A program made the translations under genes and the position numbers. A stretch of 64,000 nucleotides of DNA from a virus. The stretch is taken from the IMG/VR virus record IMGVR_UViG_3300019487_000023, positions 1-64,000 of that record. One strand, given 5' to 3'. This document shows positions 228 to 24,763 of this stretch, piece by piece. Position 1 is the first letter of the stretch, and every line of letters begins with the position of its first letter. The notes under the pieces were generated by a model. That model was given only the letters and a program-made list of their open reading frames with translations. It ran no database searches and was not told where the DNA came from.

Positions 228-262
228 ATCATTCTCCTTATAGTGAATAATAGGATCGGGAT

Positions 263-767: not shown

Positions 768-814
768 CACGCAACCCTCCATAGATAGATAGTATCGGTA
801 CTGAGTGGGGTGCG

Positions 815-831
815 GGCGTAGCAGTGTCAGT
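815..831 (-). repeat. 17-bp intergenic element, copy 1
   Basis: The plus-strand sequence is GGCGTAGCAGTGTCAGT, identical to copies at 9916, 10618 and 11705. It lies 48 bases upstream of the 552-767 gene. The stop codon TGA of the small gene at 827-985 falls inside it. A leftward promoter or processing site is possible. Confidence 0.85.
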
Positions 832-985
832 AGGGCCGGTGGGCAGATGCTGCTCGCATGCGGATGCAGTAGTCTCGGCGAGTTGTGTGAGATTCGAGAT
901 GAGCGGTCTTGAAGCCAAGACGCTCTAAGACGAGAATGAATTTATAAAGGGCGATATAGCGTTCGCGCACTCCATCTATTGCCAT
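827..985 (-). CDS. Leaderless small protein with LxRLGFKT motif, 52 aa
   Basis: A short frame that starts ATG only 6 bases after a TATAAT hexamer and has no ribosome binding site, so the mRNA would be leaderless. The protein begins MAIDGVRERYIALYK and contains a hydrophobic helix ending LERLGFKTAHLESHT. The same pattern is present in several other tiny proteins here (13306, 13858, 14541, 15145). The C-terminus is basic. The stop lies within the 17-bp repeat. Function unknown. Confidence 0.6.
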   Translation of the reverse strand: MAIDGVRERYIALYKFILVLERLGFKTAHLESHTTRRDYCIRMRAASAHRPY

Positions 986-991
986 TAGTGG

Positions 992-997
992 ATTATA
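992..997 (-). promoter_or_regulatory. TATAAT promoter, leaderless gene 827-985
   Basis: TATAAT on the minus strand, 6 bases before the ATG at 985, directly after a terminator hairpin. No clear -35 box is visible. Confidence 0.6.
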
Positions 998-1006
998 CAA
1001 ATAGAA

Positions 1007-1034
1007 ACGGGAGCGATACGCTGGTCGCTCCCGT
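1007..1034 (-). terminator. Intrinsic terminator after 1057-1299
   Basis: A perfect 10-bp stem (ACGGGAGCGA / TCGCTCCCGT) with an 8-base loop, followed on the minus strand by TTTC. It closes the operon running from 2858 to 1057. Confidence 0.75.
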
Positions 1035-1056
1035 ACTCATGATACCACCGCTGGTA

Positions 1057-1299
1057 TTACGTGAATTCTTCTTGACGATGCAGCTGAGGATGACTGCAAC
1101 GAGGACAGATGGTCCAAGAGTCGCGAGCGAGTTGCTCGAACTGACGTTCGCAGCGACCAGTCTCTTTACCTTCCTTATCTCGGAAGATAGTGACACAAGT
1201 TGAGACCTTCACTGGTGCGGTTCCAGGCGAGAGGACTCCGCGAGCAATAAGACTCTGACGAATAGATTCACCCTTCGAAACCTGCTTAGTGACGTTCAT
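1057..1299 (-). CDS. Putative zinc-binding protein, 80 aa
   Basis: A small protein with cysteines at CERQ and CPRCSH near the C-terminus plus an additional Cys in the middle, consistent with a zinc ribbon (inference). The start has an AGGAGGG site 5 bases upstream, whose first bases include the TAG stop of the preceding gene. It is the last gene of the 2858-1057 operon, followed by a terminator. The specific role is unknown. Confidence 0.65.
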   Translation of the reverse strand: MNVTKQVSKGESIRQSLIARGVLSPGTAPVKVSTCVTIFRDKEGKETGRCERQFEQLARDSWTICPRCSHPQLHRQEEFT

Positions 1300-1307
1300 T
1301 GTCCCTC

Positions 1308-1562
1308 CTAAGGACGTTTGTCTTCGTTAGCTCTCCACTCAAGAAATCGCAACATTACGATGTCTTGAATAGAGATTGTTTCAGACACTTCTGGTCTCTT
1401 TGCTGCGACATAAAGCGCAGTGATAAGGATTGAGAGTACTAACCCGAGGAATAAAGCCGCTCCAAGGTTATATACCCAAAAAGGGTGAACTTTAAAAAAT
1501 AGGTAGGATACCACGGTTAGTGCTATCCAGCTAATCCACAGTACCCTACCTGCTTTAGTCAC
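1308..1562 (-). CDS. Small two-helix membrane protein
   Basis: An 84-residue protein with two hydrophobic segments (about residues 7-23 and 28-52: VLWISWIALTVVSYLFF and the region LGAALFLGLVLSILITALY), so it is probably an inner-membrane protein. The GTG start has GGAG 7 bases upstream and overlaps the stop of the upstream gene. A short C-terminal tail is charged. It ends with TAG, rare in this window. A holin-like or superinfection role is possible, but no specific family is recognised. Confidence 0.65.
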   Translation of the reverse strand: MTKAGRVLWISWIALTVVSYLFFKVHPFWVYNLGAALFLGLVLSILITALYVAAKRPEVSETISIQDIVMLRFLEWRANEDKRP

Positions 1563-1767
1563 GACACAACTCCTGAAGTTCTTTAAGTAATTCTTGCAAT
1601 TGTCCATGCATGGTGCTTAAGCGTTTTAGGTTTGCCTTGAGTGACTCCGTTGGAGTCTTTGGACCTTGCTGAACCACTACAGGAGCGGACTCTTTGCCCT
1701 TGTACACTCGGTACAAGTTTGAATACAGAAACACTACCTTCTGCGAGTGATCGCGCTTTGCGCTCAC
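1555..1767 (-). CDS. Small coiled-coil protein, 70 aa
   Basis: Starts at GTG overlapping the upstream stop (GTGA), with AAGGTG as ribosome binding site. The N-terminal half is basic and beta-like (KVVFLYSNLYRVYKG). The C-terminal half is a predicted amphipathic helix (LQELLKELQELC) that could form a coiled coil. Its end overlaps the start of the membrane protein gene 1308-1562. Function unknown. Confidence 0.6.
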   Translation of the reverse strand: MSAKRDHSQKVVFLYSNLYRVYKGKESAPVVVQQGPKTPTESLKANLKRLSTMHGQLQELLKELQELCRD

Positions 1768-1964
1768 GACACCTTGCCGGCGAGTTGGTCGGCGACTTCG
1801 CGACACACGAGTGCTTCGCGAACGATCTCCGTTCCTCGACCGATCTCCTTGTCCTTGTTATCCCGAGTCTTCACCGTGTAAATACGTTCCCGAGTTTCGA
1901 GAACGACACGAACCGGCTTTTCACCCGGAACAGACACCCGACCAGAAAGTTCACACTTGAACAT
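1764..1964 (-). CDS. Hypothetical protein, 66 aa
   Basis: Not recognised. The start MFKCELSG follows GAGGTAA with normal spacing. The sequence alternates in a beta pattern (CELSGRVSV, RVVLETRERIYTV), suggesting a small barrel or RNA/protein-binding fold (inference). Its stop overlaps the GTG of the next gene. A CTGAAACTAT motif lies about 30 bases upstream, a motif recurring before other leftward genes. Confidence 0.6.
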   Translation of the reverse strand: MFKCELSGRVSVPGEKPVRVVLETRERIYTVKTRDNKDKEIGRGTEIVREALVCREVADQLAGKVS

Positions 1965-2154
1965 GTTTGTTTACCTCTTGGTGATGTATAGTTTCAGAAA
2001 ACAGTCTCTTATTCAGAGTAATTCTGTATCCTAAACCACCAGCGTGTATTGTGGGAGTGAGAGTTAGAGTGGACATGTGCACTCGGACACCTAGCTTAGT
2101 CATTACTGCCAGTAGATTTCCGAGTGCACGCATTTGCTTTTCGTTGACGAACAT
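1951..2154 (-). CDS. Hypothetical protein, 67 aa
   Basis: Starts by stop-start overlap (TAATG) with the lipoprotein gene upstream, so it is translationally coupled to it. It contains LGNLLAVMTKLGVRV, similar in pattern to the LxxLxRLG helix of other tiny proteins here, followed by a beta-rich Thr/Leu section. Its 3' end overlaps the 1764-1964 gene by 14 bases. Function unknown. Confidence 0.55.
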   Translation of the reverse strand: MFVNEKQMRALGNLLAVMTKLGVRVHMSTLTLTPTIHAGGLGYRITLNKRLFSETIHHQEVNKHVQV

Positions 2155-2858
2155 TAGTGGTAGAAGTTCGCAGCCGGAATGTATCCGCCATTGGCTTGCA
2201 GACTCAGGCTTTGAGATCCACCGACTTGGACATAATCAAACCTGAACGCATGTACACCACGACGAAGGAACTTCGAGCCAGAGCGAGTATTGGTTCCATG
2301 AGTTGGAGAAGGATCTGCGATGAGCTTCGAGCCATCGAGATACAACTCTGACCCATCATCGGACGTTAGATCGAACTGATAGTAAGCAGTCTCAGTGACC
2401 ACCACTTGTCCTTGGCAGATAAGTCTCGTGTTGTTGTTCTTGTAAACGCTTTGCATACCAACAGGCAAGATAGCGAGACCTACGGACCTATCGCTTTCAG
2501 CTTGATAATTGGTTGGCAAATCAAGCAGGAACGATCCAGCAGTGGCGAGAGTAGTGAATGTACTCATGTTCGTGACAGAGGCGAACGTCTGCAGAGAGCA
2601 GCTCAATCCTCGCGTCAACGCTGTTTGTCCGAGCAGGAGACGATAGTCGTTCTCATCTGCTACGAGCAACTCGATATCCGAAGGTTCGGCAGGAGCAGGA
2701 GGACTCACACCAGGTTCACCCTGAGGGCCTTGAGCTCCATCAACACCTGCAACACCTTGCGGACCTTGTGCGCCTGCAGGTCCAGCGGGACCTTGACCAC
2801 ACGATGCAAACAGAAACAAAGAACAAGCCAAAGCCAACAACGATAGCTTATTATTCAT
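2154..2858 (-). CDS. Collagen-like PA14-domain lipoprotein
   Basis: A 234-residue secreted lipoprotein. Residues 1-19 form a signal peptide ending in the lipobox LFASC with Cys20 as lipid attachment site. Residues 21-49 are Gly-X-Y collagen-like repeats (GPAGPAGAQGPQG and following). Residues about 75-234 resemble a PA14 beta-barrel: YYQFDLTSDDGSELYLDG and RRGVHAFRFDY are its typical signatures. PA14 domains bind carbohydrate in many known proteins. Such a phage-encoded surface lipoprotein could alter receptors and block superinfection (inference). The start has AAAGGAAA 6 bases upstream. It opens a six-gene leftward operon. Confidence 0.85.
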   Translation of the reverse strand: MNNKLSLLALACSLFLFASCGQGPAGPAGAQGPQGVAGVDGAQGPQGEPGVSPPAPAEPSDIELLVADENDYRLLLGQTALTRGLSCSLQTFASVTNMSTFTTLATAGSFLLDLPTNYQAESDRSVGLAILPVGMQSVYKNNNTRLICQGQVVVTETAYYQFDLTSDDGSELYLDGSKLIADPSPTHGTNTRSGSKFLRRGVHAFRFDYVQVGGSQSLSLQANGGYIPAANFYH

Positions 2859-3022
2859 ACTTTTCCTTTTTGTTTAAGATACGACGAATTACTTCGCCAA
2901 AGAAGACACTCACCAACAGACAGTAACCAAAATAATATAGTAAGATCATATGGTTAGATGGCAGACAGCATTATGCTGAGCACGCTGCCACCTATGGGAT
3001 CGCCGTGCCAACGAGTGTTCCC

Positions 3023-3514
3023 TTAGTTCGAGAACTTGGCACGAAGAGCTTCGGGCAGAGCTTCCATGTTGACAGAAGCACCCTTCGAAGCCTTGGAAGC
3101 GCTGAGCTCAGCGACGCGTGCGTCGATGTAGCCTTGCACTTCGGCTTTCTCTTCAGCCGTGGAACGGGTCTTGAGGAACAGACGGAGGTTCTTAAGCTGC
3201 TCATCACCAGAACCAACGCGGGAACCAGGATTCTTGGGAGAATACTTGGTGCCACCGTTGAGGCGAGAATCCTTGCGGATCCAGTTGCTCTGAAGACCAG
3301 AGACGTACGTGCGAAGACCGGCGTCATCGAACTCCTTGTCGAGCTCGATATTGCCAGCACGGAAACCCTCGACGAGGATCTCAGTGACCTGCGCACGACG
3401 CTCACGCGTCATGTGGGACGACACGGATTCACCTTCGGAAACCGTGATACCAGCTTCGGCGAGAACCGAAGTGATTGCGCTGTGAACAGCGTCTTTCTGC
3501 GATTGCTTAGACAT
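3023..3514 (-). CDS. KFG-tail family protein, paralogue A
   Basis: A 163-residue protein that aligns along its length with the products of 10016-10501 and 11766-12251. Shared blocks are KDAVxxAxTSVL, EYVSGLQSNWIRKD, KNPGSRxGxGDEQLKNL, EKAEVQxYIDARVAEL and the tail LPxxLxxKF. The start MSKQSQKDAV is chosen by that alignment and by an AAGGAAGG site; an earlier in-frame ATG would be read through an inverted repeat. All three are acidic, helical and without membrane segments. Function unknown. This copy ends KFSN rather than KFGI and is the most divergent. Confidence 0.8.
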   Translation of the reverse strand: MSKQSQKDAVHSAITSVLAEAGITVSEGESVSSHMTRERRAQVTEILVEGFRAGNIELDKEFDDAGLRTYVSGLQSNWIRKDSRLNGGTKYSPKNPGSRVGSGDEQLKNLRLFLKTRSTAEEKAEVQGYIDARVAELSASKASKGASVNMEALPEALRAKFSN

Positions 3515-3540
3515 AAAAAGTCTACCTTCCTTAACGTTGA

Positions 3541-3560
3541 TGTACAGACAATTCTGTACA
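3541..3560. promoter_or_regulatory. Inverted repeat in the leader of 3023-3514
   Basis: TGTACAGA / TCTGTACA arms of 8 bp with a 4-base centre, 27 bases upstream of the start. It could be a repressor operator or an RNA hairpin in the leader. The other paralogues lack it. Confidence 0.55.
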
Positions 3561-3561
3561 T

Positions 3562-3915
3562 TCATTTGTTTGTTTCAGTATCAACAGCCTGAGTCAAACA
3601 ATCTTCTAAAGCTTTCGTGGCTTCATCGTCCACTATTTTGGAGAGCATCTTGTGGTACTCTCTCACCGAGTCAGATGCAGCAGGACTTTGGGCATAGCGT
3701 GACAACATGTCACGATACTCAACGAACGTACGTTTCGCATAAAACCAATTAGCGGTTTGGTTTTTACGTGCGGCAAGCTCTTCAGCAGCTCTGTCTTTTT
3801 CTAAATGATTAGTGTTATAGCGAGAACGTAAGTCAATATACTTCTCAAGATATGCAGCTCTATCCAACATCTTGCAGATGGTAATCCACACGTCAGGTAC
3901 TTGTTCATCGCGCAT
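3562..3915 (-). CDS. Leaderless helical protein, 117 aa
   Basis: Not recognised. The start codon is 7 bases after a TATAAT hexamer and no ribosome binding site is present, so the transcript is probably leaderless. The product is almost entirely helical and rich in charged residues (RAAYLEKYIDLRSRYN, DRAAEELAARKN), without membrane segments. It lies just upstream of paralogue A. Confidence 0.65.
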   Translation of the reverse strand: MRDEQVPDVWITICKMLDRAAYLEKYIDLRSRYNTNHLEKDRAAEELAARKNQTANWFYAKRTFVEYRDMLSRYAQSPAASDSVREYHKMLSKIVDDEATKALEDCLTQAVDTETNK

Positions 3916-3922
3916 ATAATAG

Positions 3923-3928
3923 ATTATA
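3923..3928 (-). promoter_or_regulatory. TATAAT promoter for leaderless 3562-3915
   Basis: GTATAATC on the minus strand with 7 bases between hexamer and ATG. Confidence 0.65.
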
Positions 3929-3941
3929 CGAATTCAAAAAT

Positions 3942-4313
3942 CTACTTCTTCTCGTTGCTGTCGCCCAAGATACCTCTGCGAGCAAGCTCCATCTCAACAA
4001 CATGAAGAGTATCAGCGCGACGCCTATATTTACCAGCGTTATGGGCTATAAGGATCTCTTCTAAATCCTTAGAAGGAAGTTTGGTGAGTTCTTCCTTATA
4101 TAACTCAGATACTTCATCTTGCTCTTCAGGTGAGAGATCGCTGTTGATCATGTAGGCAATACGCTTAGCGAACCCTTGTTGGGAATTGTCCCACCTACCC
4201 TTTGATGTTAGGTATTCCTCCTTAACCCTCTGATATATCTCAGTAGTTAAGGTCTTGGTGCGCTGAACGAGTTTCTCAGTCGCTCTTCGTTTCTTTTGAA
4301 TCATCTCGGACAT
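3942..4313 (-). CDS. Helical hypothetical protein, 123 aa
   Basis: Not recognised. The start MSEMIQKKRR has GGAAG 5 bases upstream; a longer frame with poor context is rejected. It is basic at the N-terminus and acidic in the middle (LSPEEQDEVSELYKEEL), all helical. It overlaps the HAD-like gene upstream by 38 bases and is the last gene of the long leftward operon beginning near 9860. The stop is TAG. Confidence 0.65.
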   Translation of the reverse strand: MSEMIQKKRRATEKLVQRTKTLTTEIYQRVKEEYLTSKGRWDNSQQGFAKRIAYMINSDLSPEEQDEVSELYKEELTKLPSKDLEEILIAHNAGKYRRRADTLHVVEMELARRGILGDSNEKK

Positions 4314-4701
4314 AGTGCTTCCTTTTATCCTTGGAATAGAATCGGGCAAATGGAGTCTTAAAGAAATATCCATAAGCATCTGAGTCATCAAAGTGAAGAT
4401 CGATGTTATGCTTGAGACAGTATTCACCCTTAGTTTTGTCCCAAAGGTACTCATTCAGGAATGGGTTTCCCTTGGCATCGAAAGTCATCGGAGTTCCAAT
4501 CTCTTGATGATACGATGCGATACTGAATAGATGAGTGTAACTCAGGTCATACTTCTTAATCTCAGCGTATAACCTCTCACCAAGGAATGGTCCGGTGATG
4601 ATATGAACCTCATGCCCGTTGTCTACAAGCATCTTAGTGAACTCTTTGAAGAACTCAGGTCTATCAGTTACAACTCCATGTAAATCAATGCCGATCTTCA
4701 T
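4276..4701 (-). CDS. HAD-fold phosphatase/nucleotidase-like protein
   Basis: A 141-residue protein with a HAD-superfamily layout: motif I IGIDLHGVVTD at residues 3-13, motif II HIITG near residue 33-37, and a motif IV-like HFDDSDAY near residue 103-110. It resembles the 5'(3')-deoxyribonucleotidase-like HAD proteins of phages. Known HAD phosphatases use DxD in motif I; here the second Asp is His (D-L-H), so catalysis may be altered. A role in nucleotide metabolism is likely but not shown. It overlaps neighbours on both sides. Confidence 0.75.
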   Translation of the reverse strand: MKIGIDLHGVVTDRPEFFKEFTKMLVDNGHEVHIITGPFLGERLYAEIKKYDLSYTHLFSIASYHQEIGTPMTFDAKGNPFLNEYLWDKTKGEYCLKHNIDLHFDDSDAYGYFFKTPFARFYSKDKRKHYVRDDSKETKSD

Positions 4702-5092
4702 TCTTCTTTCTCCTCAGTCGAGATACGAAGTACTCGTAATACCCATTCTTAAACTTTGCGCCCATCATCGTCCCATATCTACCATAATGGAATGTGTATG
4801 CTTTAGTGATGACTCCAATTCCCTCATCAGGACATCCGATAACTTCTACTTCATCCCCGACCCGAAGACAATCCACAGGATCACATTTGCCACTAGGGTT
4901 AGGGGGAATATCACGAAAACAAACAGTGCAGCGAAAACTGCTATACAGACTAGGGTCGAAACGAACCTCATAACGCGGTTCATAAACTTCAAGCTTTCTA
5001 ACGAGACTTTCGATAATAGAGCGATAGTGCTCTAATGTCCTATCCTCGTCCGACATAAAAGATATCTTTGGAGGAACAAAGTCGTCGCTCAT
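4685..5092 (-). CDS. Putative zinc/SH3-like protein, 135 aa
   Basis: Begins MSDDFVPPK with GAGGG upstream. A Cys set (FRCTVCF, then GKCDPVDC) could bind zinc at about residues 54-75. It is followed by an SH3/KOW-like beta segment (LRVGDEVEVIGCPDEGIG) near residues 76-95. Such combinations occur in small nucleic-acid or protein-binding adaptors; the family is not identified. It overlaps the HAD gene by 17 bases. Confidence 0.6.
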   Translation of the reverse strand: MSDDFVPPKISFMSDEDRTLEHYRSIIESLVRKLEVYEPRYEVRFDPSLYSSFRCTVCFRDIPPNPSGKCDPVDCLRVGDEVEVIGCPDEGIGVITKAYTFHYGRYGTMMGAKFKNGYYEYFVSRLRRKKNEDRH

Positions 5093-5100
5093 TAAACCCT

Positions 5101-5424
5101 CTATTCTTGCTCCTCAATGATTGAATCAGGATCTTCACCGAGAAGCATGTAATCAATCTGTCGATCAGTGTGCCATTGCTGGAACTCTTTTTGAATCGAG
5201 CCTTGGATGTATGTTAGATTACCATCTTTCGACTTCATGTATAGGTTCACGTCGCCATTCTTTTCTTTAATAGCTTTGATGCGACCAAATGAGTCGTTAG
5301 AGGAGCTGGTTCCTCTAATCCACTCTGGTGCCCACCAATAATGAACTCCACGTTTACTTACGTGATCTTGATCTCGGTAGGGCTTTTGAATCACTTCTTT
5401 TGCGGGTGACTTTCTTTTTGCCAT
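5101..5424 (-). CDS. Hypothetical protein, 107 aa
   Basis: Not recognised. It has an AGGAGG site 5 bases before ATG. The N-terminus is very basic (MAKRKSPAKEV), the centre contains a WW-rich segment (GVHYWWAPEWIRG), and the C-terminus is acidic. It overlaps the preceding gene 5354-5650 by 71 bases. The stop is TAG. Confidence 0.6.
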   Translation of the reverse strand: MAKRKSPAKEVIQKPYRDQDHVSKRGVHYWWAPEWIRGTSSSNDSFGRIKAIKEKNGDVNLYMKSKDGNLTYIQGSIQKEFQQWHTDRQIDYMLLGEDPDSIIEEQE

Positions 5425-5650
5425 CGTTTCCTCCTAAAACAAAATATTCGAACATCCAATGTTCATATGCCTTAGTTGCTCTATTGGCACAGATCAACCA
5501 AAGTCCTCTGTCGGTTTCCCACTGTAAAGTCTTATTAGTGTATGAGATCTTACTAATATGACCCGCAACAGCGCATAACATTTCTTTAAACCAATAGCAA
5601 AGACCAGCTTCAATATAATCTGGCTCTCTGCTTGGCAACTTCGGCTTCAT
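5354..5650 (-). CDS. Hypothetical protein, 98 aa
   Basis: Not recognised. It has a Trp/Tyr-rich core (LCYWFKEMLCAVAGH, HWMFEYFVLGG) and a strongly basic tail (KKKVTRKRSDSKALPRSRSRK). The tail overlaps the start of the next gene in another frame, so the last 24 residues may be constrained by the overlap. It overlaps 5610-5846 at its own start. Confidence 0.5.
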   Translation of the reverse strand: MKPKLPSREPDYIEAGLCYWFKEMLCAVAGHISKISYTNKTLQWETDRGLWLICANRATKAYEHWMFEYFVLGGNDGKKKVTRKRSDSKALPRSRSRK

Positions 5651-5846
5651 GTATTTGACCTCTCAGAACCCTATCTGCATTAGATTTTAGATATCTAGTC
5701 CGTAAATGGTAGTCATCCACTATCTCATCAACCTGTCTTTGACTGATAACTTTTAAAACTCTAAGTATCTCTAGCAGATGACCTAATGAAAACTCCATTC
5801 TGTTGGACATTTTCATTAGGTCGATCTGATTATATGGAGGTTTCAC
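5610..5846 (-). CDS. Small helical protein, 78 aa
   Basis: A GTG start with AGGTGGG upstream, overlapping the end of the receiver-like gene. It contains LGHLLEILRVLKVISQRQV, which fits the hydrophobic LLxxLxxL-x-S/T helix pattern of the small-protein group in this arm. The rest is charged and helical. Function unknown. Confidence 0.6.
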   Translation of the reverse strand: MKPPYNQIDLMKMSNRMEFSLGHLLEILRVLKVISQRQVDEIVDDYHLRTRYLKSNADRVLRGQIHEAEVAKQRARLY

Positions 5847-6183
5847 GTTCCCACCTAATTCCGTCGATGGACTTATAGTTCATCTTAGTGAGAGCAGACT
5901 GCATCTTCTGCCTCGCAGAGGAATTAGAGGTGAGGAGATTAACAACCTTTGGATACTGAGAATTCATGAATGCAGCTTCAATAAGCACGAGCACATCGTA
6001 TCCTTCGTATGGCTTACCAGTAAGAGAATACTGTTGCTCAACAGCTCCAATATCATTGTCAAGGTGTAGTTCATCCCACGGACCCATTTTGCAGAGTGCA
6101 TCGACTCCATCTTTATAGGTTCGTGCCACCACATTAGCGTAGTCACAAGCGCGGACATCATCAATTGCTAGAATTTTCTTCAT
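5830..6183 (-). CDS. Cyclic-phosphate receiver-like protein
   Basis: A 117-residue single-domain protein resembling the cREC family (receiver fold linked to cyclic-nucleotide or cyclic-phosphate processing). Signs are the N-terminal LAIDDVR with Asp8-Asp9, an ARTYKDG helix, the second acidic strand DELHLDNDIG at residues 37-46, GYDVLVLIE, and a C-terminal Asn/Ser-rich loop followed by ARQKMQ. cREC domains occur in anti-phage and conflict systems, so a counter-defence role is possible (inference). No output domain is present. Confidence 0.7.
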   Translation of the reverse strand: MKKILAIDDVRACDYANVVARTYKDGVDALCKMGPWDELHLDNDIGAVEQQYSLTGKPYEGYDVLVLIEAAFMNSQYPKVVNLLTSNSSARQKMQSALTKMNYKSIDGIRWERETSI

Positions 6184-6502
6184 AAAATCCGTTCATTCTC
6201 TTTACTGCAAGAGATGCCAAGAACTTATCTTTCCTCTTCTTAATAACCTCATCTATGTGTCGAACATAATTAGGTATTGAAGGAATTGTCCATTCTTGTT
6301 TTGTTACCCTTAATTTATACAAAAGGATCTGTAATCGGTGTAATGCCATCTGTTTGTTCATGAAGTCATCTGATGCTTGCTTAGAAGCTGCGCAAGTGTG
6401 ATAATCGCCATTAGGCATGATGAGGTATCGATATTTTCCATCGACCTCCCATGTCATATTCTTAGCATCACAGTACTTGCATTTAGCTTCAATCTTAGTC
6501 AA
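6161..6502 (-). CDS. Zinc-finger small protein, paralogue 1
   Basis: The N-terminal segment CKYC...MTWEVDGKYRYL...PNGDYHTC (residues 8-37) matches the corresponding part of the 6902-7213 product, giving a CxxC/HxC zinc site. A helical region follows with LHRLQILLYKLRVTKQ. The start is TTG overlapping the upstream stop; a later ATG would lose the first two cysteines, so TTG is preferred. Function unknown. Confidence 0.6.
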   Translation of the reverse strand: MTKIEAKCKYCDAKNMTWEVDGKYRYLIMPNGDYHTCAASKQASDDFMNKQMALHRLQILLYKLRVTKQEWTIPSIPNYVRHIDEVIKKRKDKFLASLAVKRMNGFYEENSSN

Positions 6503-6905
6503 GCAAAGCTCTTTCCATCACTGCATTCTTCACTGCTGTGATGAATTCTTCAGCTCCACTCTCCTGAGAGTGACTAAACGAAATCACCTTATATGCTTGT
6601 CTATTGCGATCAGTGACTGCAGTACATAGAACGTCGTCGATCACAACAGCAATGTGGATCGGTGAAGTTGGGATCCAGTCTGTACTGTGGAATGCAAGAA
6701 TATCGTATCCTTGGTGATTACCAATGTGCCATACAGTAAGAATCTGAGCAGGTTTGTCTTGCTCTCTACGTTCTTTCCTAAACTCGAAGTCCAAAATAGA
6801 TACGTTGCGTGGCCTATCTGGCCACAATCCACCATTCTCTGCTATCCATTGACCAACGATATTAGAACACCTGATCGCTCTTGGTAGGTCTTGTGGGTTG
6901 ATCAT
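6495..6905 (-). CDS. Hypothetical protein, 136 aa
   Basis: Not recognised. It starts by ATGA overlap with the zinc-finger gene 6902-7213. The sequence looks like a compact alpha/beta domain (ILTVWHIGNHQGYDILAF, IHIAVVIDDVLC) ending in a helix. No catalytic motif is evident. Confidence 0.6.
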   Translation of the reverse strand: MINPQDLPRAIRCSNIVGQWIAENGGLWPDRPRNVSILDFEFRKERREQDKPAQILTVWHIGNHQGYDILAFHSTDWIPTSPIHIAVVIDDVLCTAVTDRNRQAYKVISFSHSQESGAEEFITAVKNAVMERALLD

Positions 6906-7213
6906 GTAGGTCTCTTAGGTTTAAACATATTAGGCCACAACTGCTTACGATAACGAAATAGATGCTGTGACTTCATTTGCGGAGACATTTGAGTCTCAGG
7001 AATAGCGTTGATTCGTTCCTTCTCACGAGCGTATGCCTCTTTTAAGCCCTTGTTGTGAGCTTCGCGTTCGGCTTTTACTCTTGCCATGCGAACTTCACAT
7101 GCGTGAGGCAAACCATGAGGTTCGTTAAGAACCCAGCGACCGTTCTCTTGAGTCCAATGCAGATCCTCCATTTCGCAGTCTCTGCATTTAGTGAACTTAA
7201 TTCCGCTGCTCAT
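6902..7213 (-). CDS. Zinc-finger small protein, paralogue 2
   Basis: The N-terminal CRDC...LHWTQENGRWVL...HGLPHAC (residues 10-39) is the same CxxC/HxC module as in 6161-6502. The C-terminal part is a long charged helix followed by a basic tail (KQLWPNMFKPKRPT). ATG has AGGAG at 6 bases. It overlaps the upstream gene by 17 bases. Function unknown; nucleic-acid or protein binding is plausible. Confidence 0.65.
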   Translation of the reverse strand: MSSGIKFTKCRDCEMEDLHWTQENGRWVLNEPHGLPHACEVRMARVKAEREAHNKGLKEAYAREKERINAIPETQMSPQMKSQHLFRYRKQLWPNMFKPKRPT

Positions 7214-7553
7214 CGTTGTCTCCTAGGAGGATAGAATCTGGTGTAATTACAGTGACTTCGAATGTAGCATCGATGTATTCGCCATTCACCAACTCATGAC
7301 CCAATGACTTCTCAATCATGGATGCAGTTTGATCATCGAGATACCTGATCTGCCTTCCCTCTTTGCGATCTCTAAGATCTTTAAACTCTTGACGCGAATA
7401 GTCAAGCTCCACATGATTTGTTTCGCAGTTGTCGCAATAATATGTGTTCAACTCAGTCTTAAATGGTAACAAAGTCCAACAGACCATCTCTTCACAGCAA
7501 TCGTCATACATCGTATCTTGGCGATATGCAAAACCCTGATAAGTGAACTTCAT
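7197..7553 (-). CDS. Cys-rich hypothetical protein, 118 aa
   Basis: Not recognised. Two Cys pairs (DDCCEEMVC and YYCDNCETNH) in the first 47 residues suggest metal binding. The C-terminal part is beta-rich (ATFEVTVITPDSILLG). The start overlaps the stop of the upstream gene (ATGA type). Confidence 0.6.
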   Translation of the reverse strand: MKFTYQGFAYRQDTMYDDCCEEMVCWTLLPFKTELNTYYCDNCETNHVELDYSRQEFKDLRDRKEGRQIRYLDDQTASMIEKSLGHELVNGEYIDATFEVTVITPDSILLGDNDEQRN

Positions 7554-7840
7554 TGTGCCTCCAGTTTAAAGGACGAAAGGTCCATTTCGCTTGGCAATAT
7601 CAACTTACCCAACACAACGTACATGCAAGGCATCTGTCTGCGATCCTCTCTACTCAACTTCTTACCTCTCAGCATAAAGTGATCAGAGACAGTCTTGCCT
7701 AATCTTTGATGACAATCGTGACAAGTGAGCTCACGATCTATAGCATACTCAAACTCGAATAGGTCGAAGTTAAACCCATGTTGGGTAAACACTGACCTAA
7801 GGTATTCTAATTCTTCTGGTTTTGCTTTATATCGCATCAT
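7550..7840 (-). CDS. Hypothetical protein with CxxC pair, 96 aa
   Basis: Not recognised. A single pair CHDC at about residue 41-44 lies in an otherwise mixed alpha/beta protein. The start MMRYKAK overlaps the TGA of the preceding gene and has GGAAG upstream. Neighbours on both sides overlap by 4 bases. Confidence 0.6.
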   Translation of the reverse strand: MMRYKAKPEELEYLRSVFTQHGFNFDLFEFEYAIDRELTCHDCHQRLGKTVSDHFMLRGKKLSREDRRQMPCMYVVLGKLILPSEMDLSSFKLEAQ

Positions 7841-8244
7841 TCTTCACTTCCTTCATATGACCACGTGTGATGCGATGCTTCCATCCACGCAGGATCTGGG
7901 GTAACCGTTGAACACCAGGTGCGTTTGCCTGCCTTAATTTCAATATCTGCTCTTATGAGGATATATGCTTTGTATGCTCTCCAATAGCCATATCTTGGTC
8001 CATACTTCTTGACGTATTCAATTAGGGACAATGATTTCGTTCGCTTGCGTCTTGTGACTCCATCCTCTACCCTCCCTATATAATCTGTGACGAACTTATT
8101 AAGTTGATCCACTGTATCTTGGTAGCTCACCCACTTAATCGGAGGGAAGAAGATCCTTGGGTTAGCACTCTCAACTCTGAGTGCTTGGAGCGTCAACAGG
8201 AGCTTCCCTAACGACTGAGCTTTAGGATTATTTGTTGGGTCCAT
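7837..8244 (-). CDS. Hypothetical protein, 135 aa
   Basis: Not recognised. The start MDPTNNPKAQ is chosen because GGTGG precedes it and it overlaps the upstream gene by only 17 bases; a much longer frame would run inside that gene. The N-terminus contains LGKLLLTLQALRVESAN, matching the hydrophobic helix pattern of other small proteins here. A basic centre (GVTRRKRTKSLS) and a Tyr/Trp-rich C-terminal half follow. Confidence 0.6.
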   Translation of the reverse strand: MDPTNNPKAQSLGKLLLTLQALRVESANPRIFFPPIKWVSYQDTVDQLNKFVTDYIGRVEDGVTRRKRTKSLSLIEYVKKYGPRYGYWRAYKAYILIRADIEIKAGKRTWCSTVTPDPAWMEASHHTWSYEGSEE

Positions 8245-8527
8245 CTTCCACCCGCTGAACAAAGTCTTTGATAGTGGATTGCAAAGATAAAAACCTAGCG
8301 AATCCAATAGGACCAAAGTCCTCACGTACGCATTTGAACTTAAGTTTAAGCAAGAAGTGTAATAAGCGAGCAGTGACCTGAAGACCATCTGCATGTCTTC
8401 GTTCAAGAATGTGCTTATCATGAACGTTCGGATCGATTGGGTTGGTTGCCAAGATGCTCCGAGTGAACATCAACTTTACGCTATAACGATCGACCATGGA
8501 CGACTTATTATTTACTTGTTTACTCAT
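8228..8527 (-). CDS. Hypothetical protein, 99 aa
   Basis: Not recognised. It has an AAGGAG site 5 bases upstream of ATG. It includes TARLLHFLLKLKFKCVRED, again the short hydrophobic helix ending in a basic/Ser position. No membrane segment or catalytic motif is visible. Confidence 0.6.
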   Translation of the reverse strand: MSKQVNNKSSMVDRYSVKLMFTRSILATNPIDPNVHDKHILERRHADGLQVTARLLHFLLKLKFKCVREDFGPIGFARFLSLQSTIKDFVQRVEDGPNK

Positions 8528-8560
8528 ACCTTCTCCTTTGGTTTGTTTAGATTTGTCTGC

Positions 8561-8782
8561 TTAGATCTTGTTAAGTTCGACCTTCAGTTCGTAGATATCA
8601 AGTTCCGGAAACATTTTCTGATATCTTTGCGCTTCTTCCAGGCTAGTCCATATGTGAGCTTCAGAAAATGTTTCCGGCGCCCATGGATAACCACCTGAGT
8701 TATAGTCTATAGCTACAAACTTGTCTTTGTAGCTAGTATGATTTCCTGTTCCTTTTCTTTCCGACCACTTCATTATGTACAT
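8561..8782 (-). CDS. Hypothetical protein, 73 aa
   Basis: Not recognised. The ATG (MYIMKWSERK) is preceded by GGTGAG; a GTG three codons upstream is the alternative. The sequence has an alpha/beta character with a Pro/Tyr-rich middle (NSGGYPWAPETF) and a C-terminal helix-strand (FPELDIYELKVEL). This resembles small phage 'KTxxxxxY' type domains only loosely. Confidence 0.55.
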   Translation of the reverse strand: MYIMKWSERKGTGNHTSYKDKFVAIDYNSGGYPWAPETFSEAHIWTSLEEAQRYQKMFPELDIYELKVELNKI

Positions 8783-8805
8783 TAGACTCACCTTTCGATA
8801 AAAGG

Positions 8806-9222
8806 TTAGAACGACAGGCCAACACCAGCGTGATACTGAGTGGCCGACAATGAACCAGCTGCATGATAAAGAATCCCACCGATCACCTGTAGCTTGGGAT
8901 TCAGATTATATCCAGTATTGATCTTTAGTGCAGCATCCGCTCCTTTCCATAAATCCAGCCCAACTCCAACTTCCGTAAATAGCTTCTCGTTGATATTGAA
9001 GCCACCAAGTGCTCCAACGTTGAGTGTCAGCTTGTTCTCCGCCTTGTTTGTACGGATCGGCATGAATCCCAGTTGGCCCATCGCGTAGAACTTATCCAAG
9101 TTCAGCTTAGGGTTCCAAGACGCCGCTGCAGTCAACAGCCCGCCATTAGTCTGCGTGATGTACACTGCCGAAAACCGAAATCGTCGACGATCCCTATCGA
9201 TGTCTTCCTCATCTCTACTCAT
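8806..9222 (-). CDS. Outer-membrane beta-barrel-like protein, 138 aa
   Basis: The sequence is a series of amphipathic strands (FYAMGQLGFMPI, KLTLNVGALGGFNI, LFTEVGVGLDLW, YHAGVGLSF) and ends in Phe, the usual C-terminal signature of barrels inserted by the BAM machinery. No signal peptide is present: the N-terminus is MSRDEEDIDRDRRR. It may be a truncated or captured host porin fragment, a cytoplasmic mimic, or a misassigned start. Known phages use outer-membrane proteins to block superinfection, but that is inference here. Confidence 0.55.
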   Translation of the reverse strand: MSRDEEDIDRDRRRFRFSAVYITQTNGGLLTAAASWNPKLNLDKFYAMGQLGFMPIRTNKAENKLTLNVGALGGFNINEKLFTEVGVGLDLWKGADAALKINTGYNLNPKLQVIGGILYHAAGSLSATQYHAGVGLSF

Positions 9223-9551
9223 GCATCATCTCCTAGAGGGAATAACCCTCTATCCCAATGCCAAACCTTACCTCTACGAGCCCTATCCTGACGAATAAGT
9301 AGGCCTATCGTATAGGCCACACCTTCAGCCAGATACCACCCCACTGCGATGCAACCTGGACATATACCCTCTATATGTCCTATATTGTAGTAATACTCAC
9401 CCGACTCTACCTTATTTGCCACGTTATTCAGCAGGTCTTCCCTACCCTCTCTAGCTACTATTAGGGCCTTTCCAGCATCTGCCACAGGACACCAGGGGAA
9501 TCCGTAACTTGTTGAATTTGCTAGAACACACTGACGAATAGGATGGGCCAT
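9219..9551 (-). CDS. Hypothetical protein, 110 aa
   Basis: Not recognised. It has Cys at CVLAN, FPWCPVAD and ICPGCIAVGW, with a moderately hydrophobic segment (CIAVGWYLAEGVAYTIGLL) that may be a buried helix or a weak membrane anchor. The start is preceded by GGAG at 9 bases. It overlaps the barrel-like gene by 4 bases (ATGA). Confidence 0.55.
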   Translation of the reverse strand: MAHPIRQCVLANSTSYGFPWCPVADAGKALIVAREGREDLLNNVANKVESGEYYYNIGHIEGICPGCIAVGWYLAEGVAYTIGLLIRQDRARRGKVWHWDRGLFPLGDDA

Positions 9552-9596
9552 GGCACGCCTCTCCGAGGGTCTTGCTTCTCCCCTCTCCTATTCCGG

Positions 9597-9860
9597 TCAG
9601 TCGTAGAAGTGCTCTCCTGCATGATCTCCTACGGCAAAATTCATATTCTCTAGAAGGACTCGGATATTGTTTAGATCTGCATCATCTCCTCTTCCTTCGG
9701 ATAGTTCTTTTAAGGAATGTTCTGCTATGGGGAGATTGTTGACGATTATCTTAAGGTGATGCAGGAGGACTTTTGAGGCCAGGATGGTTAGTTCCGTCTT
9801 GGGCTCTGCGTTGGCTTCGGCCATCTGTTGGGCGAGGATAGACATTTCGACTTCGTTCAT
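9597..9860 (-). CDS. Helical acidic protein, 87 aa
   Basis: Not recognised. It is helical throughout, with a hydrophobic central helix (LLHHLKIIVNNLPI) and an acidic C-terminus. AAAGGTG lies upstream of ATG. It is the first gene after repeat copy 2 and is likely the first gene of the long leftward operon 9860-3942. Confidence 0.6.
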   Translation of the reverse strand: MNEVEMSILAQQMAEANAEPKTELTILASKVLLHHLKIIVNNLPIAEHSLKELSEGRGDDADLNNIRVLLENMNFAVGDHAGEHFYD

Positions 9861-9915
9861 ATTGTGGACACACCTTTCCGTTGATGGTATTGGTTCGGGA
9901 CAGGGTAGGGGGAGT

Positions 9916-9932
9916 GGCGTAGCAGTGTCAGT
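9916..9932 (-). repeat. 17-bp intergenic element, copy 2
   Basis: Identical to the copy at 815. It sits between the terminator of 10016-10501 and the start of 9597-9860, 56 bases upstream of that start. Confidence 0.9.
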
Positions 9933-9957
9933 ATATAGGCGTAGGAGATAAGGGAAA

Positions 9958-9987
9958 GGCCCAACCCAGGTTTCTCCAGGTTGGGCC
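9958..9987 (-). terminator. Terminator after paralogue B
   Basis: A 9-bp stem GGCCCAACC / GGTTGGGCC followed on the minus strand by TTTCCCTT, 28 bases beyond the stop of 10016-10501. Confidence 0.8.
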
Positions 9988-10015
9988 AGTTGGAGATGCG
10001 ACTTACGGACTTGAG

Positions 10016-10501
10016 TTACTCGGTGATGCCGAACTTCTCGCGAAGCGAGGCAGGGAGAACCGAGGTGTTGACGGCGACCTTGGAGGCTTTGAGAGCTGCG
10101 AGCTCAGCGACTCGGGCGTCGATGTAGCTCTGGACTTCAGCTTTCTCCTCGGCGGTCGAGCGAGTGGCGAGGAAGAGCTTCAGGTTCTTGAGTTGTTCAT
10201 CGCCTTGGCCAGCACGACTTCCCGGGTTCTTGGGTTCGTACTTGGTGTTGCCGTTGAACCGAGGATCTTTGCGAATCCAGTTCGACTGCAGACCAGAGAC
10301 GTACTCCTTGAGTTCCTCGTCGGTGAAGGACTTGGTGAGGTCGATTTTGCCCGCTCGGAAACCTTCGAAGAGGATCGCGTTCACCTGAGTGCGACGCTCC
10401 TTGGTCATCTCGGCGGAGATGTTCATCCCATCTTCGAAGTGGACGTTGGCGGAGTCGAGGACGGAAGTGATTGCCATGTAGACTGCGTCTTTCTGCTTCA
10501 T
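10016..10501 (-). CDS. KFG-tail family protein, paralogue B
   Basis: A 161-residue homologue of 3023-3514 and 11766-12251 (closest to the latter). Conserved blocks are MKQKDAVYMAITSVL, KEYVSGLQSNWIRKDPRF, NPGSRAGQGDEQLKNL, EKAEVQSYIDARVAEL and the C-terminal VNTSVLPASLREKFGI. It is acidic, helical and soluble. It forms a single-gene unit: repeat copy 3 and a long leader lie upstream, a terminator and repeat copy 2 downstream. Conservation of an internal NWxRKDxRxNGxTKYxPKN block suggests a binding surface. Function unknown. Confidence 0.85.
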   Translation of the reverse strand: MKQKDAVYMAITSVLDSANVHFEDGMNISAEMTKERRTQVNAILFEGFRAGKIDLTKSFTDEELKEYVSGLQSNWIRKDPRFNGNTKYEPKNPGSRAGQGDEQLKNLKLFLATRSTAEEKAEVQSYIDARVAELAALKASKVAVNTSVLPASLREKFGITE

Positions 10502-10617
10502 AGTATTCCTTTGTTTGTTTGGTTATAGTTGATGATTGTTTCAGTATCATCGACTTGTCACTGTCGTTCAGTGATGACTACATATAGTATCGGGAACTGT
10601 TAAGTGCCGAGGTGGGT

Positions 10618-10634
10618 GGCGTAGCAGTGTCAGT
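10618..10634 (-). repeat. 17-bp intergenic element, copy 3
   Basis: Identical 17-mer, 117 bases upstream of the 10016-10501 start. Its CTGAC end pairs with GTCAG 15 bases away to form a stem (GTCAG-CGCC / GGCG-A-CTGAC), which could be the terminator of 10695-10979. Confidence 0.9.
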
Positions 10635-10694
10635 CGCCTGGTGGGCGCTGACCTACTGCTTAGTAACGGAAGTCGTGACCTTTAACGAAATGAT

Positions 10695-10979
10695 CTACGT
10701 ATTTGTCACAGCGGCCTTACGGAGGATAACTCGTGGCTTCATCGGCGGTACCTTCATAAAGGTAGAGATGCGAATGAGGTATACTTTCTCGTTCTTGTGG
10801 AGCTTCATTGTATCCTTGTGGTGTTGGACAAACCAAGACCAAGTGAGGATACCCAACGTCTTACCAGTCTCGATATCCCTTACAACCATCGGTAACCTAT
10901 CCTTTGACCACTCAATGATCTGGTCCCTGTTGAGCGAGATCGTATTCTCATAGTGAGTCCGAATTGTGCGGCATTGCAT
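10695..10979 (-). CDS. Hypothetical protein, 94 aa
   Basis: Not recognised. It has GAGGTG 5 bases before ATG. Mixed strands and helices (LGILTWSWFVQHH, EKVYLIRISTFMKV) with a basic C-terminus. It is the last gene of a five-gene overlapping chain starting at 11656. The stop is TAG. Confidence 0.6.
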   Translation of the reverse strand: MQCRTIRTHYENTISLNRDQIIEWSKDRLPMVVRDIETGKTLGILTWSWFVQHHKDTMKLHKNEKVYLIRISTFMKVPPMKPRVILRKAAVTNT

Positions 10980-11005
10980 ATATCACCTCGTGTTGGTTAA
11001 TAGTT

Positions 11006-11113
11006 TCAGCTCAGACTATTCAACTCGATAAGTATCACTCCAGCCTCGTACACAGCATACCCAGCGAGTACGATCAATCCACCTTCAATCATGCGGTCAA
11101 ACCAGGTTCTCAT
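11006..11113 (-). CDS. Tiny membrane protein, 35 aa
   Basis: A 35-residue frame with GGAG 6 bases upstream, starting by ATGA overlap with the preceding small gene. One hydrophobic segment (GGLIVLAGYAVYEAGVILI) spans most of it, so a single-pass membrane peptide is likely. Its stop forms part of the CTGAAACTATTA motif that precedes 10695-10979. Function unknown. Confidence 0.55.
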   Translation of the reverse strand: MRTWFDRMIEGGLIVLAGYAVYEAGVILIELNSLS

Positions 11114-11229
11114 AAAGTCTCCTTCAGTTTAAGGTCCTTGTAGTCCTTGCCGTTGAGTCGGCACCATCGGATGGTATTGGAGGAGAGGTCGTCGTTGCAA
11201 CCCATCAACCAATACCATATCGTCCACAT
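11110..11229 (-). CDS. Small Trp-rich protein, 39-43 aa
   Basis: A short frame coupled to the upstream gene by TGATG (start 11229) or starting four codons earlier at 11241. The N-terminus is MWTIWYWLMGC, followed by a basic segment (IRWCRLNGKDYKDLKLK). It overlaps the next start by 4 bases. This chain of overlaps is the main evidence that it is translated. Function unknown. Confidence 0.5.
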   Translation of the reverse strand: MWTIWYWLMGCNDDLSSNTIRWCRLNGKDYKDLKLKETL

Positions 11230-11483
11230 CACTCTTGCCATATCGCGTTCACTCGCAGTTGGGTTTGGACCTGACGGAGAGTGATGATGCCTTCGTTGAT
11301 TGCTTGGGCGATCTCATTCTCAGTGAGCGACTCGAGGTTAAACAAGACGAAGTCCTCCATCATCTCGCGGTCGCACGCAGCGCACTGATGTCCGATGAAG
11401 GTGTTGTGCTTGCAGCGCTCGTCGTTCTTGAGTTGGGTTTCGATAAACGATTCAAATGCTTTCATGTCTTTTCTCGAGGTCAT
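11229..11483 (-). CDS. Hypothetical protein with Cys/His cluster, 84 aa
   Basis: It starts by ATGA overlap with 11480-11656 and has GGAAAG upstream. It contains CKHNTFIGHQCAACDREM (residues 19-36), a possible zinc site, followed by an acidic helical C-terminal half (LTENEIAQAINEG). Function unknown. Confidence 0.6.
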   Translation of the reverse strand: MTSRKDMKAFESFIETQLKNDERCKHNTFIGHQCAACDREMMEDFVLFNLESLTENEIAQAINEGIITLRQVQTQLRVNAIWQE

Positions 11484-11656
11484 GCGACTTTCCTTTCGTT
11501 GAGGTTGATTTGTTTCAGCTCGATGTTCTGGAGGTGGATGATACTCTTCATTATCTCAATCCGAGCTATCAGGAGTTCAATTATTCGAGTACTTCTGCGT
11601 TCAGTGAGCAACTCTTGATCATTCTCAGCTAGGGCTTGATATAGTTCAGCTAGCAT
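11480..11656 (-). CDS. Small helical protein, 58 aa
   Basis: Starts MLAELYQALAEND with AAGGAG 6 bases upstream. All helical, with a hydrophobic stretch IIELLIARIEIMKSIIHL that could form a coiled coil. It is the first gene after repeat copy 4 and a TATAAATA-containing leader. It overlaps the next gene by 4 bases. Confidence 0.6.
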   Translation of the reverse strand: MLAELYQALAENDQELLTERRSTRIIELLIARIEIMKSIIHLQNIELKQINLNERKVA

Positions 11657-11704
11657 AACGTTCTCCTTATTTATAATTATTTATAGGTTCGGCAACTCCC
11701 TATA

Positions 11705-11721
11705 GGCGTAGCAGTGTCAGT
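11705..11721 (-). repeat. 17-bp intergenic element, copy 4
   Basis: Identical 17-mer, 49 bases upstream of the 11480-11656 start and immediately after a terminator hairpin. Two TATAAAT-like hexamers lie between it and the gene. Confidence 0.9.
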
Positions 11722-11722
11722 G

Positions 11723-11750
11723 GGTGGGGACAGCTTGCGCCATCCCCACC
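11723..11750 (-). terminator. Terminator-like hairpin after paralogue C
   Basis: GGTGGGGA / TCCCCACC arms with a 12-base loop just beyond the stop of 11766-12251. No T-tract follows on the minus strand; the 17-bp element starts directly. Confidence 0.6.
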
Positions 11751-11765: not shown

Positions 11766-12251
11766 TCAGCTGATACCGAACTTGGCCTTCAGGCTGTCGG
11801 GCAATACCGAGGTATTGACCTCGACCGACTTGGCCTTCTCAGCAGCGAGCTCGGCAACCCGAGCATCGATGTACTGCTGCACTTCGGCCTTCTCAGCAGC
11901 GGTCGTCCTCGTGTTGAGGAACAACCGGAGGTTCTTGAGCTGCTCGTCACCTTGTCCCGCTCTCGAACCGGGGTTCTTCGGAGTGTACTTCGTGTTCCCG
12001 TTGAAGCGAGGGTCCTTGCGAACCCAGTTGCTCACGAGACCGGAGACGTATTCCTTGAGACCGCTCTCGTCAGGAAGGTCGCCGCTGTAGTCGATCGTTC
12101 CCTTCTGGAATCCCGCGATGAGGATGGCAGAGACCTGAGCGCGAGTCTCGCGGGTCATCAGGGACTTGATGTCCATCCCGTCTTCGAAGGCATGACCTTG
12201 CTCGTTGAGGACGGAGGTAACCGCTTGATACACAGCATCTTTCTGTTTCAT
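11766..12251 (-). CDS. KFG-tail family protein, paralogue C
   Basis: A 161-residue homologue of the proteins at 10016-10501 and 3023-3514, with the same blocks and the tail VNTSVLPDSLKAKFGIS. The start MKQKDAV is taken because AAGGAG lies 8 bases upstream; an ATG two codons earlier is too close to that site. Codon use is more GC-rich than in the other copies. A CCGAAACTATTAATCC motif lies about 30 bases upstream. Function unknown. Confidence 0.85.
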   Translation of the reverse strand: MKQKDAVYQAVTSVLNEQGHAFEDGMDIKSLMTRETRAQVSAILIAGFQKGTIDYSGDLPDESGLKEYVSGLVSNWVRKDPRFNGNTKYTPKNPGSRAGQGDEQLKNLRLFLNTRTTAAEKAEVQQYIDARVAELAAEKAKSVEVNTSVLPDSLKAKFGIS

Positions 12252-12289
12252 TCGCATTCTCCTTGTTATGTGGATTAATAGTTTCGGTA

Positions 12290-14013: not shown

Positions 14014-14222
14014 TGCTTAACTTCAATACTCTCAAGGCTGTACATATTGCGAACGGTGTTGCACAGTGCAGCGAAGGTATTAACAAGCGTCACTACATTG
14101 CTAACAAAGCTAGAGGTAGGGCTGGCGGCATCGAGTACATGCAGCACTCTAGCAATCACAAGCTGTATGCGTTAGAGGATGACTTTGATCGCAACAGTAG
14201 GCCAGCACAGAGGATGCAGTGA
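14013..14222 (+). CDS. Small protein, 69 aa
   Basis: Starts MLNFNTLKAVHIANG by TAATG coupling to the upstream gene. The sequence has a His/Asn-rich middle (KRHYIANKARGRAGG) and a charged end. It is the last rightward gene before a converging leftward group. Function unknown. Confidence 0.5.
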   Translation: MLNFNTLKAVHIANGVAQCSEGINKRHYIANKARGRAGGIEYMQHSSNHKLYALEDDFDRNSRPAQRMQ

Positions 14223-14269
14223 CAGGTTTAATTATCCTGAGAACTCTTAGGAACATTACAAACTCAATG

Positions 14270-14554
14270 CTAGCTTGAAGCTTGAGGATATCTGACTCGA
14301 AAGACTTGGTCAAGGCGGTCCTCCAAGGACAGTCGTCCTTTCCACGAGGGATCATATCCATAATACACTAGTCGATAGTTGCGACTGAGTTCATCGCCAT
14401 GATCTAAGTCATAGAAGTCTATGTAGCTTGACATGGATTCGGTCTGCACGTGAAGTAGGCCAATTACCCTAAGACGTCTAAGAACCTTCAGTAGCCTGAA
14501 GAAGGACGTCACTTGCTGCATGTTGAGATTGTCGAACGGTTTACCAGGCTCCAC
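14270..14554 (-). CDS. Small protein, 94 aa
   Basis: GTG start overlapping the end of 14541-14705 by 14 bases. It contains VTSFFRLLKVLRRLRVIGLLHVQ, the hydrophobic/basic helix of the small-protein group, then a Tyr/Asp-rich region (YIDFYDLDHGDELS). The stop is TAG. Function unknown. Confidence 0.5.
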   Translation of the reverse strand: MEPGKPFDNLNMQQVTSFFRLLKVLRRLRVIGLLHVQTESMSSYIDFYDLDHGDELSRNYRLVYYGYDPSWKGRLSLEDRLDQVFRVRYPQASS

Positions 14555-14705
14555 TTTTAGTCCCTGCCAGTGTTAGAAGTTGCATATACTCTTCCCATAC
14601 TTTAACAGAGGGCGTAGCTGCGCTCTTGATCCCAAGATCCCTTAGGACAAACAGTAGTCGCATTGTGCGCTCAGTAGAGATGATCTTATAAGTCAGCGGG
14701 TCCAC
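14541..14705 (-). CDS. Small protein with RDLGIKS motif, 54 aa
   Basis: A GTG-initiated short frame (MDPLTYKIISTERT) with overlaps of 14-20 bases to both neighbours. The core LLFVLRDLGIKSAATPSV matches LARLGLKTP and DRLGLKSP in other small genes here. The ribosome binding site is weak; an internal ATG 12 codons later is possible. Confidence 0.45.
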   Translation of the reverse strand: MDPLTYKIISTERTMRLLFVLRDLGIKSAATPSVKVWEEYMQLLTLAGTKSGAW

Positions 14706-14841
14706 TTAGTGGAGTTATACTTCCACGTCTGGAGTGCTGGTAGAGTAGTTTCCACATAAAATACAATAGCTCGAGCCTGTAGTGGCAATCGATTAGGTGC
14801 TTGTGGTCCGCTTTGGAGATGCGATCTATTTGACGCTCCAT
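14686..14841 (-). CDS. Small helical protein, 51 aa
   Basis: Starts MERQIDRISK with AAAAGGA 8 bases upstream. It has LELLYFMWKLLYQHSRRGSI, again a hydrophobic helix followed by basic/Ser residues. An overlapping frame starting at 14896 has a strong AGAGGAGG site and competes for the same DNA; which is translated is uncertain. Confidence 0.45.
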   Translation of the reverse strand: MERQIDRISKADHKHLIDCHYRLELLYFMWKLLYQHSRRGSITPLSGPADL

Positions 14842-14947
14842 AACACAGTCCTTTTGTAATATTGATGTGGAAGGAGGCGGATTGAAGTTCAGACATGATA
14901 AAGCCTCCTCTAGGTTGGTCAACCTAATGGCTGACTATAATATTTTA

Positions 14948-15148
14948 TCACGAGGTGGGATTGTCTGAATCGAATAGGGTGCGTTCGATGATTTCATCTT
15001 CGACCCAAGCTTTTTGCAGCTCGCAGTCAAATTTCTTCACAGAAAGTATAGAGTTGTGGGGACCGCAGTAGCGGTTAAGTACCCAATGGAGTTCCCCAAG
15101 TGGCATGGCGTGCAACAATGCTTTAATACGATCTGGGCATTCTCTCAT
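14948..15148 (-). CDS. Small protein, 66 aa
   Basis: Starts MRECPDRIKALLHAM by ATGA overlap with 15145-15282 and only 6 bases after TAAAAT, so it may be expressed both by coupling and from a leaderless transcript. The first half is a hydrophobic helix (ALLHAMPLGELHWVLNRY); the second half is acidic. Function unknown. Confidence 0.55.
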   Translation of the reverse strand: MRECPDRIKALLHAMPLGELHWVLNRYCGPHNSILSVKKFDCELQKAWVEDEIIERTLFDSDNPTS

Positions 15149-24753: not shown

Positions 24754-24763
24754 AATTATTATG

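Follow-up and report, generated by a model that had tools for sequence, protein, structure and literature searches.

A candidate two-module promoter placed after terminator-like hairpins in an uncultured myophage family

Introduction

Late promoters of phage T4 are read by gp55, a sigma factor without region 4 that works with co-activators. T4 middle promoters depend on sigma appropriation, in which the MotA box wwwTGCTTtA replaces the -35 element at 12 +/- 1 bp from the -10 (PMC2988021). PeSLs (Arbiol 2010 and Comeau 2014, cited in PMC4503421) combine promoter and terminator in one unit in T4-like phages; as summarized in the citing paper, a stem-loop and a promoter are packed together between genes, where these are small and variable.

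Here we analyze a window of 64,000 nt, the first part of a 108,664-bp IMG/VR virus record, in which a short element (A) is followed by a second element (B) ahead of leftward genes. As at T4 middle promoters, a phage activator box would substitute for the -35 beside a sigma -10. Both A and the MotA box contain TGCT, and when A and B are 5-6 nt apart the end of A lies 12-13 bp from the -10 hexamer, a distance also seen for the MotA box. Unlike that box, A (CT-GACACTGCTACGCC) is longer, near-invariant and found at several helical turns rather than at one spacing, with only the 5-6-nt class at the MotA distance, and B carries a CCGA element. No match to the MotA-type domains PF09114 and PF09158 was found in 12 records, some of them incomplete, a search that divergent homologues could escape. 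As in PeSLs, a stem-loop and a putative promoter are packed between genes, in the order hairpin-A-B in most sites; compared through the citations in PMC4503421, PeSLs use early host-type promoters, whereas the A-B units add a near-invariant, helically phased element. Like T4 late promoters, B would be a -10-only promoter that is served by a sigma factor without -35-binding capacity and needs a second factor. In contrast to gp55, the phage sigma factor found here is clearly related to SigA (253 bits) and truncated ahead of region 4.2, and the B promoters lie in a small-gene block and seemingly receive their help from a bound upstream DNA site.

Results

Element A in the window and in related phages

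The plus-strand 17-mer GGCGTAGCAGTGTCAGT, which reads ACTGACACTGCTACGCC in the leftward direction of the genes, occurs with zero mismatches at 815, 9916, 10618 and 11705, where 0.10 matches are expected by chance at up to 3 mismatches. No fifth copy was found in the whole record, confirming the four identical copies of the initial annotation as exact, confined to one strand and the only ones present. They lie ~47, 56, 117 and 49 bases from the leftward gene starts, in agreement with the 48-117 bases given earlier. The copies had also been described as always intergenic, which does not hold at 815, where a possible 52-aa ORF (827-985) has its TGA stop inside the element. The terminator hairpin reported before most copies is strong at 11705 and 9916, weaker and overlapping at 10618, and absent just before 815.

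815..831, minus strand, element A copy 1 (17-mer), exact match; core GACACTGCTACGCC at 815-828
9916..9932, minus strand, element A copy 2, exact match
9958..9987, minus strand, terminator-like hairpin upstream of A copy 2; 12-bp stem, z -3.0
10618..10634, minus strand, element A copy 3, exact match; weaker hairpin over its CTGAC end
11705..11721, minus strand, element A copy 4, exact match
11723..11750, minus strand, terminator-like hairpin directly upstream of A copy 4; z -5.0, no U-tract

Across 138 non-redundant A sites the information is confined to CT-GACACTGCTACGCC, and we discarded the exact 17-mer as the unit; the leftward core, T-GACACTGCTACGCC, is shorter. Because the set of sites was built from near-exact matches, the invariance of A is partly a selection effect. 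Two-mismatch matches (GACACTGCTTCG.. and GACACTGCTACGG..) were rejected as a second class, being mostly within coding sequence and without B; two such matches that do bear B may be true variants of A. A search of published text for the motif returned a single, unrelated match.

The window belongs to a contractile-tail phage. Among isolates, Myxococcus phage Mx1 matches its tail sheath best (32% identity), and its major capsid protein is ~31% identical to those of SPO1-like phages. Mx1 contains matches to A at chance level only, and megablast of the window region against isolate phages gave no match. The exact 17-mer is present in 36 stretches of IMG/VR contigs. The window's sheath is encoded in 20/20 other A-bearing records tested (~51-79% identity), so that A marks one uncultured family, a large group of ~170-kb myophages in which many contigs carry it. 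Absence from related phages had been named as evidence that would count against the element. Such absence was not observed: among 13 large relatives (at least 100 kb) gathered by capsid-protein alignment without the use of A, 11 contain true A sites, defined as a core plus a hairpin or B; the two without, G026 (115 kb) and G027 (108 kb), may both be incomplete. Assignment of a host from two MAG bins (Cytophagales and Saprospiraceae) was rejected as too weak, as the phage genes carry Shine-Dalgarno sites, which are rarely used by Bacteroidota.

Element B and its spacing from A

A de novo motif search identified B, with the consensus CCGAnnC[T/G]ATATA, downstream of A. By de novo EM on the 90 nt downstream of the 138 A sites, a CCGATCCTATATA-like B is present in 93% of sites, with a log-likelihood of 531 as compared to 44 for shuffled sequence and 114 upstream of A. 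Scored at 8 bits or more within 120 nt of A, B was found at 120/138 sites (7/138 in shuffles), leaving 18 A sites without a good B. The shared downstream sequence that the initial annotation had noticed at two copies exists at all four, and four further B matches in the window stand without A.

786..798, minus strand, element B copy 1, de novo motif, CCGATACTATCTA, gap of 16 nt to A
9886..9898, minus strand, element B copy 2, CCGAACCAATACC, gap of 17 nt to A; weak, 9.4 bits
10581..10593, minus strand, element B copy 3, de novo motif, CCGATACTATATG, gap of 24 nt to A
11680..11692, minus strand, element B copy 4, de novo motif, CCGAACCTATAAA, gap of 12 nt to A
247..259, minus strand, B without A, CCGATCCTATTAT
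1985..1997, minus strand, B without A, CTGAAACTATACA
10997..11009, minus strand, B without A, CTGAAACTATTAA, before 10695-10979
12275..12287, minus strand, B without A, CCGAAACTATTAA, before 11766-12257

The A-B gap ranges from 4 to >60 nt and falls mainly into clusters of 5-7, 12-17 and 24-28 nt; gaps of 9-10, 20, 25 and 29-30 nt do not occur. The resulting periodicity of ~10-10.5 bp has a Rayleigh p of ~1e-9 (2e-7 when each combination of locus and gap is entered once), values that are optimistic since A sites are related by descent, yet each cluster holds diverse contigs. It was reached by 0/20,000 resamples of a smoothed-distribution null; the 26-28-nt group is slightly off phase. The ~10-bp periodicity argues for protein contact at the level of DNA, and the helix-turn distances to B suggest that a phage protein reads A.

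Helical phasing would also be expected if A were an operator, at which a phage regulator that contacts or loops to the polymerase represses or times the B promoter, and the presence of A at only about one fifth of B sites (21/105) would suit such special control. We regard an operator as unlikely, with most A sites upstream of the promoter core (gaps mostly 5-28 nt), the usual place of an activator, and at the heads of operons after terminators.

B resembles an extended -10 promoter

In three large genomes, B matches favor the coding strand of the small-gene block (33:11, 33:6 and 32:5, coding to other strand) and are often intergenic and shortly ahead of a start codon; B alone precedes many genes of the block. 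In the window's own record the total of B matches is not above the shuffled count, but the minus-strand matches cluster before leftward genes. Profiles of B sites contain CCGA, a C, an invariant A inside a KATATA -10 box and then an AT-rich stretch; at B+17/18 comes a YR step (Y ~0.87, R ~0.90), and no conserved -35 box is present. Given a YR step at start-site distance and no -35 box, B looks like an extended -10 promoter.

Alternatively, A could itself be the promoter, either of a phage single-subunit RNA polymerase or as the -35 box of a sigma factor: it is long, rigid and almost invariant, its CTGACA resembles TTGACA, and at the shortest gaps it sits at about -35. Gaps of 12-60 nt are unable to form a -35/-10 pair, though, and the A-B gaps lack the fixed ~17-bp spacing of sigma70 promoters; on this spacing A was discarded as a -35 box, and the poor fit to TTGACA and a -10 noted in the initial annotation is borne out. 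The AT-rich -10, the YR step and the start-codon distance are features of B, which also stands alone. The T7-like RNA polymerase domain PF00940 had no match in 15 records, with control genomes equally silent. That A is a promoter in its own right is highly improbable.

Another promoter-like motif, near KGTATAATT and distinct from A and B, precedes genes on the structural-gene side (window ~15800-56700 and record to 108 kb), on weaker evidence (log-likelihood of 62 as compared to 28 for shuffled sequence).

Hairpins upstream of A

The 40 nt upstream of A fold with a mean of -13.2 kcal/mol, as compared to -7.8 kcal/mol when shuffled. Upstream structure tends to be greater at B sites with A than at those without, a difference that is not significant (p 0.086, four genomes). 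The end of the hairpin 3' arm most commonly abuts or overlaps A, and TTTT occurs within the last 12 nt before A at only 13/133 sites, as might be seen if hairpin and A together formed a signal, acting in RNA, that terminates the upstream unit or sets its RNA end. We consider this quite unlikely: the distance from hairpin to A varies from overlap to 38 nt and more, some hairpins carry a U-tract of their own ahead of A, and the ~10-bp phasing with B would be left unexplained. RNA processing is likewise disfavored by the helical phasing between A and B and by the position of A behind terminators. Of the options raised in the initial annotation, transcription control stands, with an operator or activator site fitting best, while a polymerase promoter and RNA processing do not fare well.

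Genes near A and candidate readers

Genes of one multi-copy family, with just a handful of copies per genome, adjoin 54/133 A sites, including sites in the window.

3023-3565, minus strand, further member of the multi-copy family
10016..10501, minus strand, family member between A copies 3 and 2, adjoining A sites
11766..12257, minus strand, second family member, ending 50 nt before A copy 4, adjoining A sites

The structural model of this family, itself a possible reader of A, is all-helical and confident (pLDDT 93), with no fold match among solved structures. At the sensitivity used, no member of the family turned up in isolate phages. With one gene family flanking so many sites, and near-identical A beside unrelated neighbors in many genomes, the units might be mainly PeSL-like recombination cassettes in which A is kept as short homology for gene shuffling rather than for transcription. 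A match of 16 bp is short for homologous recombination, and homology alone predicts neither helical phasing with B nor the promoter-like profile of B. We find this very unlikely as the main role of A; recombination could be an added effect.

A 184-aa conserved early core protein was rejected as the reader of A, as it looks like an endonuclease, and the other conserved early proteins that were scanned showed no activator domain.

In the record we also observed a tRNA gene with anticodon CTA (window 62639-62716, plus strand; tRNA-Pyl by ARAGORN, plain tRNA by Rfam), which may be a phage amber-suppressor tRNA, and an ORF resembling NUMOD3/HNH homing endonucleases, which lies as an insertion within the structural genes but on the other strand (window 23698-24786, minus strand). 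Outside the window, an N6/N4-type DNA methylase (record 65499-66269) is 67-77% conserved across the family. The DNA polymerase is encoded in two ORFs ~510 bases apart (L161:11297-13567 and 14079-15443; record 75297-77567 and 78079-79443) and in one ORF in the relative G010; the gap between the two ORFs matches no known intron family.

A truncated sigma factor accompanies one type of B

B occurs in two genome-specific kinds that differ at positions 6-8, CGA and CTA. A full-length sigma gene (~230 aa) is present in 7/11 CGA records and 0/12 CTA records (Fisher p 0.0013), many of the records compared being fragments. After the pattern had appeared in a first set, the CGA-type G033 was found with the sigma gene and the CTA-type G034 and G035 without it; G013 (176 kb) is an exception, with CGA-type B and no full-length sigma. 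The correlation may rest on one evolutionary change, which the capsid tree allows. The phage sigma (74437-75123 in the CGA-type G001) aligns to residues 122-343 of the 390 of SigA, and so lacks region 4.2, the -35-binding part. This SigA-derived factor may also have a changed -12 preference, G instead of T. A occurs in both CGA and CTA genomes, so its reader is not the truncated sigma.

A 603-aa ORF outside the window (record 100195-102006; L162:16195-18006) has 32% identity over 123 aa to a protein of G001, a short sigma-region-2-like protein; such domains occur in genomes of both B types. This ORF is possibly a late sigma factor.

Discussion

We propose, with a probability of roughly 60%, that A and B form a two-module phage promoter, with A as the upstream and B as the downstream half, and that it is positioned behind a terminator. 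The ~16-bp element A (leftward CT-GACACTGCTACGCC) would be a protein-binding activator site that replaces the -35, and B the core extended -10 promoter without a -35 box, with transcription predicted to start ~18 nt after the first base of B. A factor bound at A, most likely phage-encoded, would contact RNA polymerase at B from a given face of the helix, and hence from one, two or three turns upstream of B. Transcription units would be headed by A-B promoters, right after the terminator hairpin of the preceding unit, while B alone would act as a promoter inside units. The phage sigma without region 4.2 is the probable reader of B in part of the family; in the rest, the window phage among them, B would be read by another sigma factor, probably that of the host. 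The sequences establish A and B as motifs, with their order, helical phasing, strand and distribution among genomes, as well as the truncated sigma and how it correlates with B type; from these we infer promoter activity, the start site, activation rather than repression, the nature of the reader and the timing of transcription. The initial annotation held neither element B, nor the link to sigma, nor the family-wide distribution of A.

More tentatively, and with somewhat less than even odds, these promoters could represent an undescribed class of phage transcription, in which a conserved activator at a near-invariant 16-bp site drives -35-less promoters from several helical turns, with a SigA-derived sigma in part of the family. 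From the A and B sites, putative promoters can be mapped by sequence across a widespread phage family that lacks a close isolate. If correct, the changed -12 preference would separate phage promoters from those of the host, in what is apparently a natural case of a sigma factor and a -10 box changing together across related genomes. Should the activator be found, the -35 contact would have been dispensed with by truncation of sigma, and not by T4-style remodeling of the host sigma.
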